From Rhodovulum sulfidophilum DSM 1374 (GTDB lineage Bacteria; Pseudomonadota; Alphaproteobacteria; Rhodobacterales; Rhodobacteraceae): 64,000 nucleotides of DNA. The notes below the pieces were generated by a model. The model ran no database searches, had not been told where the DNA came from, and saw only the letters and a list, made by a program, of their open reading frames with translations. Made by a program: the position numbers and the translations under genes. Of this stretch, positions 29,423-57,277 are shown one piece after another (positions within the stretch are counted from its first letter, which is position 1; each line of letters begins with the position of its first letter). The stretch lies in the NCBI RefSeq assembly GCF_001633165.1, contig NZ_CP015418.1, forward strand, positions 2,170,001 through 2,234,000. Direction: 5' to 3'.

Positions 29423-30436
29423 CTAGCTCCGGCGGCGCCGACGCGGCGCGCGGGCCGGGCTCTCGCCCTCGCCGGTGCCATCCGAGGCCGACGAGAACCC
29501 GCCGAGCCGCTCGGTGATTTCGTCGAGGCTGGGGCGGGCGCCTCTGGGCCGGGTTTCCAGCGCCGCGCGCATGGCCTTCAGGTGCTCGGGCGTGGTGCCG
29601 CAGCAGCCGCCGATGATGGTGGCGCCGCAATCGCGGGCGAGCACCGCATAATCGGCCATCAGCTCGGGCGTGCCGTCGTAATGGATATGGCCGTCGACAT
29701 AGCGCGGAATGCCCGCATTGCCCTTGGCGATGACCGGCCGCTCGCTGCCCGAGGCGGCAAATCCCAGAACGGTGCGCAGCAGATCGGAGGCCCCGACACC
29801 GCAATTGGCGCCGAAGGCCAGCGGCGGACAGGGCAGTTTCTCGACCAGATCGGCCAGACCGGAGGAGGTGACGCCCATCATCGTGCGTCCGGCGGTGTCG
29901 AAGCTCATGGTGCCGCACCAGGGCATGCCGGCCAGACGCGCGGCCTCTCCCGCGGCGCGGAATTCCTCGGTCGCGCTGATCGTCTCGACCCAGAGCAGAT
30001 CGGCGCCGCCCGCCTTCAGGGCGTCGGCCTGTTCATGGAAGATCTCGACCGCGCGGGCATAGGAAAGCGGCCCCATCGGTTCCATGATGTCGCCGGTCGG
30101 TCCGACCGAGCCCGCCACCACCACCGGGCGGTCGGCGGCATCGGCGATCTCGCGGCCGAGTTCGGCCGCCAGCCGGTTCAGCTCGCCGACCCGGCCCTGG
30201 GCATTGTGCAGGCGCAGCCGCGCGGCATTGCCGCCGAAGCTGTTGGTCAGGAAGATGTCCGAGCCGGCCTCGACCGCGCCGCGATACAGCGCGCGGATCC
30301 TGTCGGGGTGATCGGCATTCCAGAATTCGGGAGCATCGCCGGAGCCGAGCCCCATGTTGAACAGGGTGGTTCCGGTCGCGCCGTCGGCCATCAGCCAGTC
30401 GCGCTCGGCGAGCAGACGGGAAAGGGCATCGGTCAT
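29423..30436 (-). CDS. bmt: homocysteine S-methyltransferase subunit (BHMT-like)
   Basis: The 337-residue homocysteine-binding domain protein has the zinc cysteines in FGANCGVGASD and IGGCCGTTPEH, as in the first module of MetH. With the separate corrinoid protein, methyltetrahydrofolate methyltransferase and RACo-type activator in this window, it most likely completes a split methionine synthase. Automated annotation often calls it betaine-homocysteine methyltransferase. It ends in a flexible tail closing APRRRRRS. Confidence 0.88.
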   Translation of the reverse strand: MTDALSRLLAERDWLMADGATGTTLFNMGLGSGDAPEFWNADHPDRIRALYRGAVEAGSDIFLTNSFGGNAARLRLHNAQGRVGELNRLAAELGREIADAADRPVVVAGSVGPTGDIMEPMGPLSYARAVEIFHEQADALKAGGADLLWVETISATEEFRAAGEAARLAGMPWCGTMSFDTAGRTMMGVTSSGLADLVEKLPCPPLAFGANCGVGASDLLRTVLGFAASGSERPVIAKGNAGIPRYVDGHIHYDGTPELMADYAVLARDCGATIIGGCCGTTPEHLKAMRAALETRPRGARPSLDEITERLGGFSSASDGTGEGESPARAPRRRRRS

Positions 30437-30545
30437 CTGGGCAGTCCTTTCGCACTGAGGCCGGGCCGGCGGCGTTGCCGCCCGCCGGTGACCGGCCGAA
30501 GGTCCGAACCCCCGCAGCACCCGCCGGAGCGGGTGCCGGCCGGGG

Positions 30546-30860
30546 TCAGGATTCGCTCATGATCTGGGCCTTGGCGACGGCCATCAGCTCGGCCATCTTG
30601 GCGCGCAGCGTCGGCTCGTCGGTCCGGTCGCCGAGATCGCCCGAAACCTTGCGGAAGACATCCTCGTCGCCCGCTTCCTCGAAATCGGCCTTCACCACCT
30701 GCTTGGCATAGTCGAGCGAGGCCTCCTCGCTCAGGCCCATGAGCTCGGCGGCCCAGAGGCCGAGAAGCTTGTTGCGACGCGCTTCGGCCTTGAACTGCAG
30801 TTCCGAATCATGGGCGAACTTGTTTTCGAAAGCGAGTTCGCGATCGTCGAACGTGGTCAT
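30546..30860 (-). CDS. F1-ATPase inhibitor zeta subunit (DUF1476)
   Basis: The 104-residue all-helical protein (MTTFDDRELAFENKFAHDSE, KLLGLWAAELMG) is the alphaproteobacterial zeta subunit, first found in Paracoccus, which blocks ATP hydrolysis by F1. ATG at 30860 fits the conserved N-terminus that inserts into F1 and has AGGAGT upstream. Confidence 0.93.
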   Translation of the reverse strand: MTTFDDRELAFENKFAHDSELQFKAEARRNKLLGLWAAELMGLSEEASLDYAKQVVKADFEEAGDEDVFRKVSGDLGDRTDEPTLRAKMAELMAVAKAQIMSES

Positions 30861-31177
30861 AGGAGTACCCCCCATCGTGGAATTCCGGTGTCCCGTGCCA
30901 TTTAAGGGAACTTCCCCGGCCTGCCTAGGGGCAGGTTGGCAGGGGGCGCCGCGAACGGCAAGGCCGCGCTTGGCACGGATGTCGCTCTTGGCACGGTTGC
31001 CGCCCTTGGCACGGTTGTCGCCGCAGCATGCAGAAGACAGGGTAGATGAAGATGGGGGAGAAGATAAGGCCGTGGCGGGGCGCAGCCGCCTTGCGGCAGC
31101 GCGCGCCTTGGACTACAAGCGCGTCAAATCGCGCGGGCGGGCAGACGCCTTCCGCGCCTGGGGCACTTGGAGTTTCC
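30861..31177. other. intergenic region upstream of purC with 18-bp repeats
   Basis: No gene is seen. It holds a hairpin CCTGCC-TAGG-GGCAGG near 30920 and three tandem 18-bp units at 30966-31019. It should contain the promoters of the divergent zeta-subunit and purC genes. Confidence 0.5.
30966..31019 (+). repeat. three tandem 18-bp repeats
   Basis: Units GCGCTTGGCACGGATGTC, GCTCTTGGCACGGTTGCC and GCCCTTGGCACGGTTGTC differ at a few positions and share CTTGGCACGG. The 18-bp step is below two helical turns. A regulator-binding array or slippage product are both possible. Confidence 0.8.
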
Positions 31178-31939
31178 ATGGCACGTCGGAAGAAGATCTA
31201 CGAAGGCAAGGCGAAGGTTCTCTACGAAGGCCCCGAGCCGGGGACGCTGGTGCAGTATTTCAAGGATGACGCCACCGCCTTCAACGCCGAGAAGCATGAC
31301 GTGATCGAGGGCAAGGGCGTGCTGAACAACCGCCTGTCCGAGTTCTTCATGTCGGGGCTGAACGCGATCGGGGTGCCGACCCATTTCATCAAGCGCATCA
31401 ACATGCGCGAGCAGCTGATCCGTCAGGTCGAGATCATTCCGCTGGAAGTGGTGGTGCGCAACGTCGCCGCCGGGTCGATGTCCAAGCGGCTCGGGATCGA
31501 GGAGGGCACCCAGCTTCCGCGCCCGATCATCGAATTCTACTACAAGGACGATGCGCTGGGCGATCCGCTGGTCACCGAAGAGCATGTCATCGCCTTCGGC
31601 TGGGCCAGCCAGCAGGATCTCGACGACATGGTGGCGCTGGCGCTCAGGGTGAACGACTTCCTGTCGGGGATCATGGTCGCGGTCGGCATCAAGCTGGTCG
31701 ATTTCAAGATCGAGATCGGCCGGATCTGGGATGGCGACTTCATGCGTCTGGTGGTCGCCGACGAGATCAGTCCCGACAGCTGCCGGCTCTGGGACGTCAA
31801 GACCGGCCAGCATCTCGACAAGGACGTGTTCCGCCGCGATCTGGGCTCGCTGACCGATGCCTATACCGAGGTGGCCAAGCGCCTGGGCGTGCTGCCGACG
31901 AATGTCACCCATGCGAGCAAGCCGACCCTGATCAATTGA
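31178..31939 (+). CDS. purC: SAICAR synthase
   Basis: The 253-residue enzyme joins aspartate to CAIR in purine synthesis. Motifs: [35 protein letters not shown] and [12 protein letters not shown]. The start at 31178 fits the family N-terminus. purS and purQ follow. Confidence 0.97.
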
Positions 31940-55987: not shown

Positions 55988-56041
55988 GCGGGGCTCGATT
56001 TTTCATCGAAAAATCGTTTCAATTCCTCGACGAAGACTTGC

Positions 56042-56272
56042 CTAGCAGATGACACGCAGGCCATGCGGGTTGCAGATGACGATGAGCTGTCCGCCGCATT
56101 CGACCATGTGAAAGCCGCGCCTGCGGACTTCTGCCACGAACCGCTCCATGCCGATCTCGCGCTCGACCCAGTGCCGTGACCGGCGGACCACGCCGCCCTT
56201 CGCCACCGCCTGGGCCGAGAAGACCAAGGCAAGCCAGCTGTCGGACGGCGTGGGGCGAGATACGAACTCCAT
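56042..56272 (-). CDS. small conserved protein in the methyl-transfer operon
   Basis: The 76-residue protein (MEFVSRPTPSDSWLALVFSA, MVECGGQLIVICNPHGL) has no domain that I can name. It lies between the RACo and methyltransferase genes on the same strand, so may belong to the system. Similar small genes are sometimes annotated as phosphoribosylanthranilate isomerase, which the length does not support. Confidence 0.6.
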   Translation of the reverse strand: MEFVSRPTPSDSWLALVFSAQAVAKGGVVRRSRHWVEREIGMERFVAEVRRRGFHMVECGGQLIVICNPHGLRVIC

Positions 56273-56326
56273 GCCCGCGATTTTGCCGGTTTCATGGTTA
56301 AGAACATCTTACTACAGGCCGCCCGA

Positions 56327-57277
56327 TCAACCGCGCCGCCGCCGTCGGCCGCTGCCCGCCGCCGTAACCGCAGTCGAGGCCTCGGCAAAGCTCGCCCCTG
56401 CCGCGATCCCGTCGAGCACCCGCGAGAAGCGGATCCAGTCCGCGCCATTGGCGTCGTGGTTCATCAGCAGGTTGGCCGCCCGGATCGCCTCCATCTCGAC
56501 CGGGCGGACAGGGTTCATGATCGCCGAGGTCATTCCGGCCGAGATCGCCATCGGCAGGAAGGCGGCGTTCACGCCATGGCGCTGGGGCAGTCCGAAGGAA
56601 ATGTTCGAGGCGCCGCAGGTGGTATTCACCCCCAGCTCGTCGCGAAGCCGCCGCACCAGGGCAAAGACCTGCCGTCCGGCGCTGGCCATGGCCCCGACCG
56701 GCATCACCAGCGGATCGACCACGATATCGCAGGCCGGGATGCCGAAATCGGCGGCGCGCTCGACGATCTTCTTCGCCACCGCAAAGCGCACATCGGGGTC
56801 TTCGGAAATCCCGGTATCGTCATTCGAGATCGCCACCACCGGCACGTTGTATTTGCGCACCAGGGGCAGCACCCGTTCGAGCCGTTCCTCCTCGCCGGTC
56901 ACCGAATTCAGCAGCGGCCGACCCTGGGCCGCGGCCAGACCCGCTTCGAGCGCCGCGGGAACCGACGAGTCGATACAGAGCGGTACATCGACCAGCCCCT
57001 GCACCAGCTCGATCACCTGGCGCATCAGCGGCGGTTCGGTCTGGTTCGGGTCGGGGTTCGAATTGTAGACGACGCCCGCATTCACATCGAGCACCATGGC
57101 CCCGCAGGCCACCTGCTCCAGCGCGTCCTTCTCGACGGTCGAGAAATCGCCGGCCTCCAGTTCGGCCGCCAGCTTCTTGCGGCCGGTCGGGTTGATGCGT
57201 TCGCCGATCACGCAGAACGGCTCGTCGAAGCCGATGGTGACGGTCCGGGTCTTCGACTCGAGAACGGTACGGGTCAT
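56327..57277 (-). CDS. methyltetrahydrofolate:corrinoid methyltransferase
   Basis: The 316-residue pterin-binding TIM barrel (CVIGERINPTGRKKLAAEL, MVLDVNAG, NSVTGEEERLERVLPL, SNISFGLPQRHGVNAAFL) equals the methyl-folate module of MetH or AcsE/MtrH-like proteins. It should methylate the corrinoid protein at 27340. The start at 57277 fits the family. The C-terminus ends GSGRRRRRG. Confidence 0.92.
   Translation of the reverse strand: MTRTVLESKTRTVTIGFDEPFCVIGERINPTGRKKLAAELEAGDFSTVEKDALEQVACGAMVLDVNAGVVYNSNPDPNQTEPPLMRQVIELVQGLVDVPLCIDSSVPAALEAGLAAAQGRPLLNSVTGEEERLERVLPLVRKYNVPVVAISNDDTGISEDPDVRFAVAKKIVERAADFGIPACDIVVDPLVMPVGAMASAGRQVFALVRRLRDELGVNTTCGASNISFGLPQRHGVNAAFLPMAISAGMTSAIMNPVRPVEMEAIRAANLLMNHDANGADWIRFSRVLDGIAAGASFAEASTAVTAAGSGRRRRRG

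Follow-up and report, generated by a model that had tools for sequence, protein, structure and literature searches.

Enzymes whose active sites must reach one small corrinoid protein, MtgC, carry arginine-rich tails, and the opposite charges of these client tails and of the start of MtgC suggest that a single B12 carrier is shared through an electrostatic plug-in arrangement that has not been described. The system came to light in a 64,000-nucleotide stretch of the Rhodovulum sulfidophilum DSM 1374 genome (hereafter the window), in which a homocysteine methyltransferase, a methyl-folate methyltransferase and a corrinoid activase end in APRRRRRS, GSGRRRRRG and GNRRRRRPR, just as the first-pass annotation had read them (Table 1). 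The tails are near-universal on four protein families in MtgC-bearing loci, their arginine content is conserved, and the MtgC N-terminus is acidic.

The proteins in the window belong to MtgBCDE, a known system that acts as a split methionine synthase and as a betaine demethylase. They share genes, domains and genomic association with MtgBCDE, RamA and DUF1638 of Phaeobacter inhibens and Ruegeria pomeroyi, and the window MtgC is the counterpart of the protein described there (PMC5764234 and PMC12478193, cited here for the sections accessible to us). According to those sections the MtgBCDE and RamA genes work together, relatives need them to make methionine or to grow on betaine, and MtgC is not derived from MetH (PMC12478193). 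Pfam searches place the homocysteine (PF02574), pterin (PF00809) and B12 (PF02607 and PF02310) domains in separate proteins, find a RamA-like DUF4445/RACo activase (PF14574, PF17651, PF17650), and return one genome-wide match to the MtgB family PF06253 (E 1.1e-236). Besides these, the genome has a complete MetH in one piece, so the MtgCDE proteins are not its sole methionine synthase; this MetH ends in RKEGDAAAA and has no arginine tail. Starts of MtgE and MtgD were chosen to fit homologue lengths within frames open to 30520 and 57328, and the MetF2-like protein, which has no Pfam match, was named from its position and the accessible literature (PMC12478193).

Table 1 Features of the Mtg locus in the window (positions in the 64,000-nucleotide stretch)
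Feature	Position	Strand	Remarks
MtgC, corrinoid (B12-binding) hub protein	27340..28044	-	234 aa; PF02607 cap + PF02310
Acidic N-terminal 36 residues of MtgC	27937..28044	-	14 D/E, 1 K/R (counted by eye)
MtgE, homocysteine methyltransferase	29423..30436	-	337 aa
MtgE C-terminal Arg tail APRRRRRS	29426..29449	-	
RamA/RACo-type corrinoid reductive activase	53957..55987	-	676 aa
RamA C-terminal Arg tail GNRRRRRPR	53960..53986	-	
MtgD, methyltetrahydrofolate:corrinoid methyltransferase	56327..57277	-	316 aa
MtgD C-terminal Arg tail GSGRRRRRG	56330..56356	-	
MetF2-like protein, directly upstream of mtgD, without tail	57286..58260	-	Neighbouring negative control
Virulence_fact (PF13769) protein, same neighbourhood, without tail	58257..58892	-	

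The evidence supports an origin of the tails other than chance, common descent, or codon or GC bias. As the first-pass annotation had observed, the arginine runs are written in distinct codons (MtgE, CGT CGG CGC CGC CGG; MtgD, CGA CGG CGG CGG CGC; RamA, CGG CGC AGA CGT CGC) on unrelated domains, which Pfam assigns to S-methyl_trans (PF02574), Pterin_bind (PF00809) and RACo/DUF4445. Common descent through domain duplication, which it had judged unlikely, is rejected because the families and folds differ and the MtgB tail described below lies at the opposite terminus. A run of at least four arginines in the last 16 residues occurs in exactly 3 of the 48 genes called in the window, namely MtgE, MtgD and RamA, and in 0 of 273 genes sampled from the same genome (heuristic gene calls from 19 stretches of 20 kb); 8 of the 273 qualify under a looser measure, five or more arginines at any position within those 16 residues. 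We used these gene-based rates in place of a whole-genome count of five arginines followed by a stop, which gave 157 raw matches without frame filtering against 253 for the backwards control pattern and was uninformative. All six arginine codons are used in tails, roughly in the proportions of the gene bodies. Tails are also retained in loci of 47–55% GC with arginine preferred over lysine, R/(R+K) being 0.90 in 33 tails from loci below 55% GC versus 0.58 in the protein bodies. GC or codon bias is accordingly rejected as their origin.

Arginine-rich tails recur on most orthologues, whose general lack of tails would, by the first refutation criterion of the first-pass annotation, have told against docking. 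Defining a C-terminal tail as a 15-residue stretch within the last 40 residues that holds at least five arginines, we found tails in 81 of 83 MtgE, 88 of 90 MtgD and 88 of 88 RamA sequences and in 40 of 826 control genes; at least six arginines in the last 15 residues occurred in 0 of the 826. These measures were chosen after the first tails had been seen, the controls were drawn partly from the same loci as the tailed genes, gene calls were heuristic with uncertain N-terminal starts, and the orthologues are related by descent, so the counts are not independent events. Rows with incomplete C-termini were dropped (5 of 91 for MtgE, 10 of 105 for MtgD, 13 of 102 for RamA), as were two further MtgE rows below 48% identity, one short MtgE row, 3 of 116 MtgB rows without an upstream stop, and duplicates in all families. 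In the 120 top-scoring homologues per protein, out of about 8000 scored, R5 was present in the last 16 residues of 62 MtgE, 60 MtgD and 115 RamA proteins, and R3 in 102, 102 and 118, respectively. The description of a shared five-arginine tail thus holds only for this genome and its close relatives; more distant tails are arginine-rich but differ in sequence. Tails are kept across Alpha-, Beta- and Gammaproteobacteria and Acidimicrobiia metagenome-assembled genomes while their sequences turn over, and their variable length and spacing make sequence-specific recognition doubtful. The last 16 residues of MtgE are modelled with pLDDT below 50, as expected of a disordered segment.

A fourth family, the betaine-type methyltransferase MtgB/MttB, carries its tail at the N-terminus. 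At least five arginines in a 20-residue stretch of the N-terminal region were found in 109 of 111 sequences, paralogues included (18 of 19 in paralogue loci, 91 of 92 elsewhere). This measure is less discriminating, as an equal cut-off passes 159 of 826 controls (19%) and only 35 of 47 MtgB in the gene-called subset; the region measured comprised 50 residues around the core start for MtgB and the first 50 residues of the called gene for controls. In four genomes, 19 of 20 MttB paralogues have at least five arginines in their first 30 residues (starts picked by eye), and PF06253 reaches up to 12 matches per genome. A twin-arginine export signal was rejected by eye because no hydrophobic stretch follows the MtgB arginine region.

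MtgC is typically a single-copy protein with a strongly acidic start. One match per genome was obtained at E≤1e-30 in 28 of 30 family genomes, and the acidity of the first 36 residues, to which the first-pass annotation had drawn attention, is conserved: D+E minus K+R is at least 10, with a median of 14, in 95 distinct sequences, compared with a maximum of 8 and a 99th percentile of 6 in control genes. The 95 remain of 131 rows once duplicates were removed, together with rows that lacked either an LYDG/LYNG motif or a start methionine within reach. Across 45 aligned sequences L10, L13, D15, L18, Q21, D24, D25, L26 and Y27 are invariant. The model places a helix from residue 15, with only residues 1–6 below pLDDT 50; the acidic stretch overlaps the first cap-domain helix, so some of the acidity may be structural.

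The tails appear to track MtgC, not loss of MetH. MtgC and one-piece MetH occur together in 4 of 30 family genomes (G000, G002, G030 and G044), and all four are tailed; by the second criterion of the first-pass annotation itself, the tails do not mark loss of MetH. Its framing of the set as a dissociated MetH is not supported, and a tail specific to MetH-less genomes is rejected. In a gammaproteobacterium (G145) MtgB, MtgD and RamA are tailed and MtgC is acidic, and the sole MtgE-like match lies inside a MetH-sized frame of 1249 residues. Genome G039 encodes an MtgE-like protein without a tail, and MtgC, MtgD and RamA were not found there at the cut-offs used. Five distant RamA relatives from other lineages (28–36% identity) lack an arginine tail at their ends, and two PF02574 paralogues (L339 and L340) have 3–4 arginines in the tail measure. 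These homologues, together with the own MetH and relatives of solved structure, agree with an absence of tails where MtgC is not used, but form a small sample in which absence of MtgC was checked in G039 only. DUF1638 is rejected as a tailed client, since all 5 MtgC-type loci read encode it without a tail; its domain (PF07796) was matched in 3 of 3 proteins chosen from other loci. As DUF1638 is genetically linked to the MtgBCDE system (PMC5764234, accessible sections), tagging does not extend to all genetic partners. Nor does acidity of a corrinoid protein imply tails: in the haloarchaeon Halomicrococcus the corrinoid protein has 14 D/E and 2 K/R in its first 36 residues, and the neighbouring RamA and MtrH-like proteins have no arginine tail. 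Haloarchaeal proteins are acidic in general.

We propose that the tails are flexible, disordered electrostatic tethers that probably dock clients on acidic MtgC. Each enzyme presenting an active site to the MtgC corrinoid would be tagged at one end, with MtgE serving homocysteine, MtgD methyl-folate, MtgB and its MttB paralogues methylated osmolytes, and RamA reductive rescue. On MtgC, the tail may bind the first cap helix together with the conserved, acidic segment at the N-terminus, raising the local concentration of MtgC while still letting it exchange between clients; exchangeable docking of this kind could stand in for the covalent linkers of one-piece MetH. Binding would aid methyl transfer, and all MttB paralogues would presumably use MtgC. 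We hold more tentatively, at somewhat under an even chance, a general code in which a methyltransferase or activase becomes an MtgC client by adding a short arginine-rich tail at either end, to be read by the acidic cap.

Known systems offer partial parallels. One-piece MetH (the solved bacterial and human enzymes and that of this genome) catalyses the same reaction with domains matching MtgE, MtgD and MtgC, but has covalent linkers in place of tails; we liken the Mtg set to its tethered domains. In the methanol methyltransferase MtaB–MtaC, docking likewise uses an N-terminal extension of the corrinoid protein, an extra domain seated in the groove between MtaB subunits (PMC9842639, accessible sections); this is a folded domain with one cognate partner, whereas MtgC has an acidic segment and, we infer, many arginine-tailed partners. 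Methanosarcina MttB–MttC (PDB 7xcl/7xcn) pairs a homologous methyltransferase with a corrinoid protein whose cap domain lies in the interface (PMC9842639, same sections), and residue 10 of the MttB chain, where its alignment starts, matches query residue 34, indicating that this MttB lacks an N-terminal extension of comparable length. Full-text searches of open-licence papers listed no title or abstract opening that describes the tails. The word arginine is absent from the main text of the 2025 MtgBCDE paper (PMC12478193) and is not tied to Mtg proteins in the accessible sections of the 2018 paper (PMC5764234), and those sections of both mention neither a tail nor a docking code.

Arginine-rich tails could instead bind RNA or membranes, which counts against docking. 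Short arginine-rich and RGG-like tails generally resemble nucleic-acid-binding tails; one MtgD ending, GRGGRRRRRA, is of this kind, and arginine is kept over lysine. The enzymes might thus be gathered on a third anionic scaffold (RNA, the nucleoid or the inner membrane face) without touching MtgC through their tails. We think this unlikely, since MtgC, which also needs gathering, has the opposite charge, the neighbouring MetF2-like and Virulence_fact proteins are tail-less, as is DUF1638, and tails occur on four different folds with MtgC as their common partner. Still less probable is complex coacervation of tails and acidic MtgC into a methyl-transfer compartment in place of one-to-one docking. 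The tailed families are probably oligomeric and bear oppositely charged terminal segments to MtgC, the model of the MtgE tail looks disordered and there are many MttB copies per MtgC, but most of the MtgC acidic segment is modelled as ordered.

Two further readings are very improbable. One takes the tails for functionless decoration that arose by chance, through GC content or by inheritance within lineages, as the genome is GC-rich, the tails are of low complexity and the counted orthologues are kin; it is already disfavoured by the rates in this genome (0/273 for runs of four) and more widely (40/826 on the looser measure), by arginine preference at 47–55% GC, and by retention across distant lineages despite sequence turnover. 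In the other, the ligand of the tails is a negatively charged substrate or cofactor, for example folate in polyglutamyl form or the nucleotide loop of cobalamin. MtgD does use folate and the corrinoid carries phosphate, yet tails are also carried by MtgE, RamA and MtgB, which do not belong to folate enzyme families, and the own one-piece MetH handles the same ligands without a tail.

Docking through tails would belong with other arrangements in which unrelated enzymes are brought to one hub by short segments, charged or helical, such as encapsulation peptides and the E1 and E3 docking of 2-oxoacid dehydrogenase cores. The likeness is one of description; MtgC clients differ in having arginine-rich tails, at either terminus, around a small B12 carrier. 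MtgBCDE is reported to be common and strongly expressed in ocean bacteria, where it serves to demethylate betaine and to make methionine, and the accessible sections of the same paper offer no explanation of how small MtgC finds at least four different enzymes (PMC12478193). A short, deletable tail makes this client-finding directly testable. If docking is true, it would offer engineering a portable means of linking enzymes to a B12 carrier, and would explain how MttB-family demethylases multiply in a genome without more corrinoid proteins. If the plug-in code also holds, the arginine tail becomes a search handle for unknown MtgC clients, and a tail read by MtgC at either end would let a dozen MttB-type demethylases, acting on different substrates, use the same corrinoid protein that serves methionine synthesis.

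The first-pass annotation claimed five-arginine (Arg5) C-terminal tails on the homocysteine methyltransferase MtgE, the methyl-folate methyltransferase MtgD and the corrinoid activase RamA (RACo), and the sequence of the window contains all three. Pfam places these proteins in different families (homocysteine S-methyltransferase, pterin-binding methyltransferase and RACo/RamA-type activase), in agreement with the claim that their domains are unrelated. Among 48 genes called in the window by codon-position GC, the Arg run is confined to MtgE, MtgD and RamA. The same gene calling on 19 stretches of 20 kb from this genome yielded 273 genes, none with a run of at least four consecutive arginines in the last 16 residues and 8 with at least five arginines scattered there. 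The ORF with a sorting-type signal (Table) is absent from the 48 called genes; we take its RRRR end to be part of a VPLPA-CTERM-type signal, outside the set of proteins that work with the corrinoid protein MtgC.

Table. Coordinates of features in the window and of a haloarchaeal comparison locus
Feature	Position	Strand	Remarks
MtgC	27340-28044		234 aa
Radical-SAM-like ORF (by eye)	28092-29378	plus	lies between mtgC and mtgE, which are on the other strand
RNase E/G-like ORF (by eye)	37661-40660	plus	acidic and Arg-rich stretches alternate; long Arg runs internal, no terminal tail
Three adjacent ORFs	47393-52837	minus	by look, presumably an imuA-imuB-dnaE2 mutagenesis cassette
ORF with VPLPA-CTERM-like sorting signal	59021-59722	plus	ends PVPLMPSAAFLLLAVAGFGAFARRRRS
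Halomicrococcus plasmid locus L344	7158-11864		haloarchaeal cluster: corrinoid protein, RamA-like, DUF1638, MtrH-like; no Arg tails

The tails are conserved in the family of the source organism, a Rhodovulum-like bacterium whose RamA matches a Rhodovulum sulfidophilum record at 98% identity. For each protein the 120 best homologues were compared: their last 16 residues contain Arg5 in 62 MtgE, 60 MtgD and 115 RamA sequences, and Arg3 in 102, 102 and 118, respectively. We searched 30 of 61 family genomes (the three that lack the betaine-type methyltransferase family PF06253, and 27 for which an MttB locus was listed) for MtgE, MtgD, RamA and MtgC. MtgC, MtgD and RamA occur together in 28 of the 30, MtgE is present in all 28, and every intact C-terminus of the three enzymes in these genomes is visibly Arg-rich. 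At family loci, excluding copies already counted elsewhere, the numerical tail measure is passed by 22/23 MtgE, 27/27 MtgD and 27/27 RamA proteins; the sole miss is genome G039, whose MtgE-like protein (48% identity) ends AAQPVAATRRA. In G039 and G019, MtgC, MtgD and RamA were not found at the cut-offs used, and both genomes encode MetH, the one-piece methionine synthase. Genome G035 has MtgC and no PF06253 match, and keeps all three tails.

If tails mark MtgC clients, the betaine-type methyltransferase MtgB should carry one, and this prediction came out. MtgB-type proteins start with an Arg-rich stretch: the MtgB of this genome, its one PF06253 match, begins MSEAEATTGRRGRGGGGAARRAARSN, and RRxRGGGGAARRAERTA or a near variant occurs in most other listed family MtgB proteins. 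Family genomes have up to 12 PF06253 matches each, compared with one MtgC match at E ≤ 1e-30. Four genomes (G031, G029, G026 and G038), two of them included in the MtgC search, supplied another 20 PF06253 genes, 11 of which come from those two. Of these 20 candidate MtgC clients, 19 have at least five arginines in the 30 residues from the start chosen by eye.

Across all orthologues compared, a 15-residue stretch with at least five arginines lies within the last 40 residues of 81/83 MtgE, 88/90 MtgD and 88/88 RamA proteins; the MtgE misses are G039 and G418, the latter with RKRSRR. The control set of 826 other genes, drawn from 120 loci, has 40 that pass this cut-off and none with six arginines in the last 15 residues. 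Five arginines within a 20-residue stretch ahead of the core are found in 109/111 MtgB proteins (18/19 paralogues from the 20-gene set and 91/92 others); 159 of the 826 controls (19%) also pass, making the N-terminal measure weaker. A stricter gene-called subset gives 35/35 MtgE, 38/40 MtgD, 45/45 RamA and, at the N-terminal cut-off, 35/47 MtgB, the low last rate probably reflecting starts called too far upstream. Tail arginines use all six codons, roughly in gene-body proportions, and at loci below 55% GC, Arg/(Arg+Lys) is 0.90 in 33 tails versus 0.58 in bodies. Bias is excluded as the source of the tails, and their composition suggests selection for arginine.

The available text of PMC5764234 describes a split methionine synthase with these proteins in Phaeobacter inhibens. 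Their Ruegeria pomeroyi counterparts carry the names MtgC, MtgD and MtgE, and in that species MtgC and MtgD additionally act with MtgB (PF06253) in demethylating glycine betaine (PMC12478193, available text). The window proteins are members of this known system, which is itself not new. MtgE may have a second mode of action, since its purified P. inhibens counterpart Bmt can use DMSP or betaine directly for methionine formation, with no need of cobalamin (PMC12366255, available text). PGA1_c13360 of P. inhibens, numbered between the mtgC and mtgE counterparts, was not important in minimal medium (Price et al., PMC5764234, available text). The initial framing of the tails as holding together a dissociated MetH is not supported: this genome also encodes a complete one-piece MetH including the activation domain, a domain found in 11 of 61 family genomes. 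Four of the 30 searched family genomes have both MetH and MtgC and keep the tails, which are therefore no marker of MetH loss.

A search of 397 Pseudomonadota genomes at E ≤ 1e-35 finds MtgC in 55, and 22 of these lie outside the family. We sampled 20 kb around MtgC from 20 of the 22, searching 10 also genome-wide for RamA and MtgE, together with 80 named loci of 590 confirmed for a gammaproteobacterial MtgC. Tails were found in Rhizobiales, in gammaproteobacteria (HTCC2143 and HTCC2148 among them), in betaproteobacterial and Acidimicrobiia MAGs, and in Azoarcus and Terrarubrum. The gammaproteobacterial genome G145 (loci L187, L322 and L338) has Arg-rich ends on MtgB, MtgD and RamA and an MtgC beginning MTDSYQEDDDFDLNELSDDELVEQ; its sole MtgE-like match at E ≤ 1e-20 sits in a 1249-aa frame, and by that size we read it as MetH.

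No tail was seen on five distant RamA relatives (plasmid loci only), from Halomicrococcus, Acetoanaerobium, Vescimonas, Thiodictyon and Subdoligranulum; the reading frame of a Gemmatirosa relative is uncertain. As a negative control Halomicrococcus cuts both ways: the corrinoid protein beside RamA has an acidic N-terminus, yet RamA and the MtrH-like protein lack an Arg tail, the latter having RRR 20 residues before its end. Unlike the proteins here, solved relatives have no comparable extension, namely RACo 3zyy (631 aa, aligned up to query residue 645 of 676), AcsE, and the putative methyltransferase 2qne ("MtgB" in the available text of PMC9842639) and glycine betaine methyltransferase 9yce, both aligned from query residue 39. 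Neither the MetF2 nor the Virulence_fact neighbour in the window has a tail, nor does DUF1638 in the five loci read.

The first 36 residues of MtgC are indeed very acidic, as first noted, with 14 acidic and 1 basic. Across 95 distinct MtgC N-termini the acidic excess over basic residues in this segment is at least 10 (median 14), and the control maximum is 8. An alignment of 45 sequences shows invariant L10, L13, D15, L18, Q21, D24, D25, L26 and Y27, so more than charge is conserved. AlphaFold gives pLDDT below 50 for MtgC residues 1-6 and for the 16 C-terminal residues of MtgE, and places a helix from MtgC residue 15 at the start of the cap domain; alignment with the closest solved corrinoid protein, 1y80, begins only at about residue 21-22.

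The tailed proteins share one property: the active site of each has to meet the corrinoid of MtgC. A third-party anionic scaffold might gather them, a less likely arrangement because MtgC itself has the opposite charge to the tails. Docking through an N-terminal extension of the corrinoid protein has a precedent in MtaB-MtaC (PMC9842639, available text). Full-text searches of open-licence papers gave no description of the tails, of their occurrence on MtgB paralogues or of the complementary MtgC segment. The simplest account, with tail-MtgC binding inferred, is a flexible electrostatic tether in which the Arg tail would settle onto the acidic cap helix of MtgC, replacing non-covalently what linkers do in MetH.
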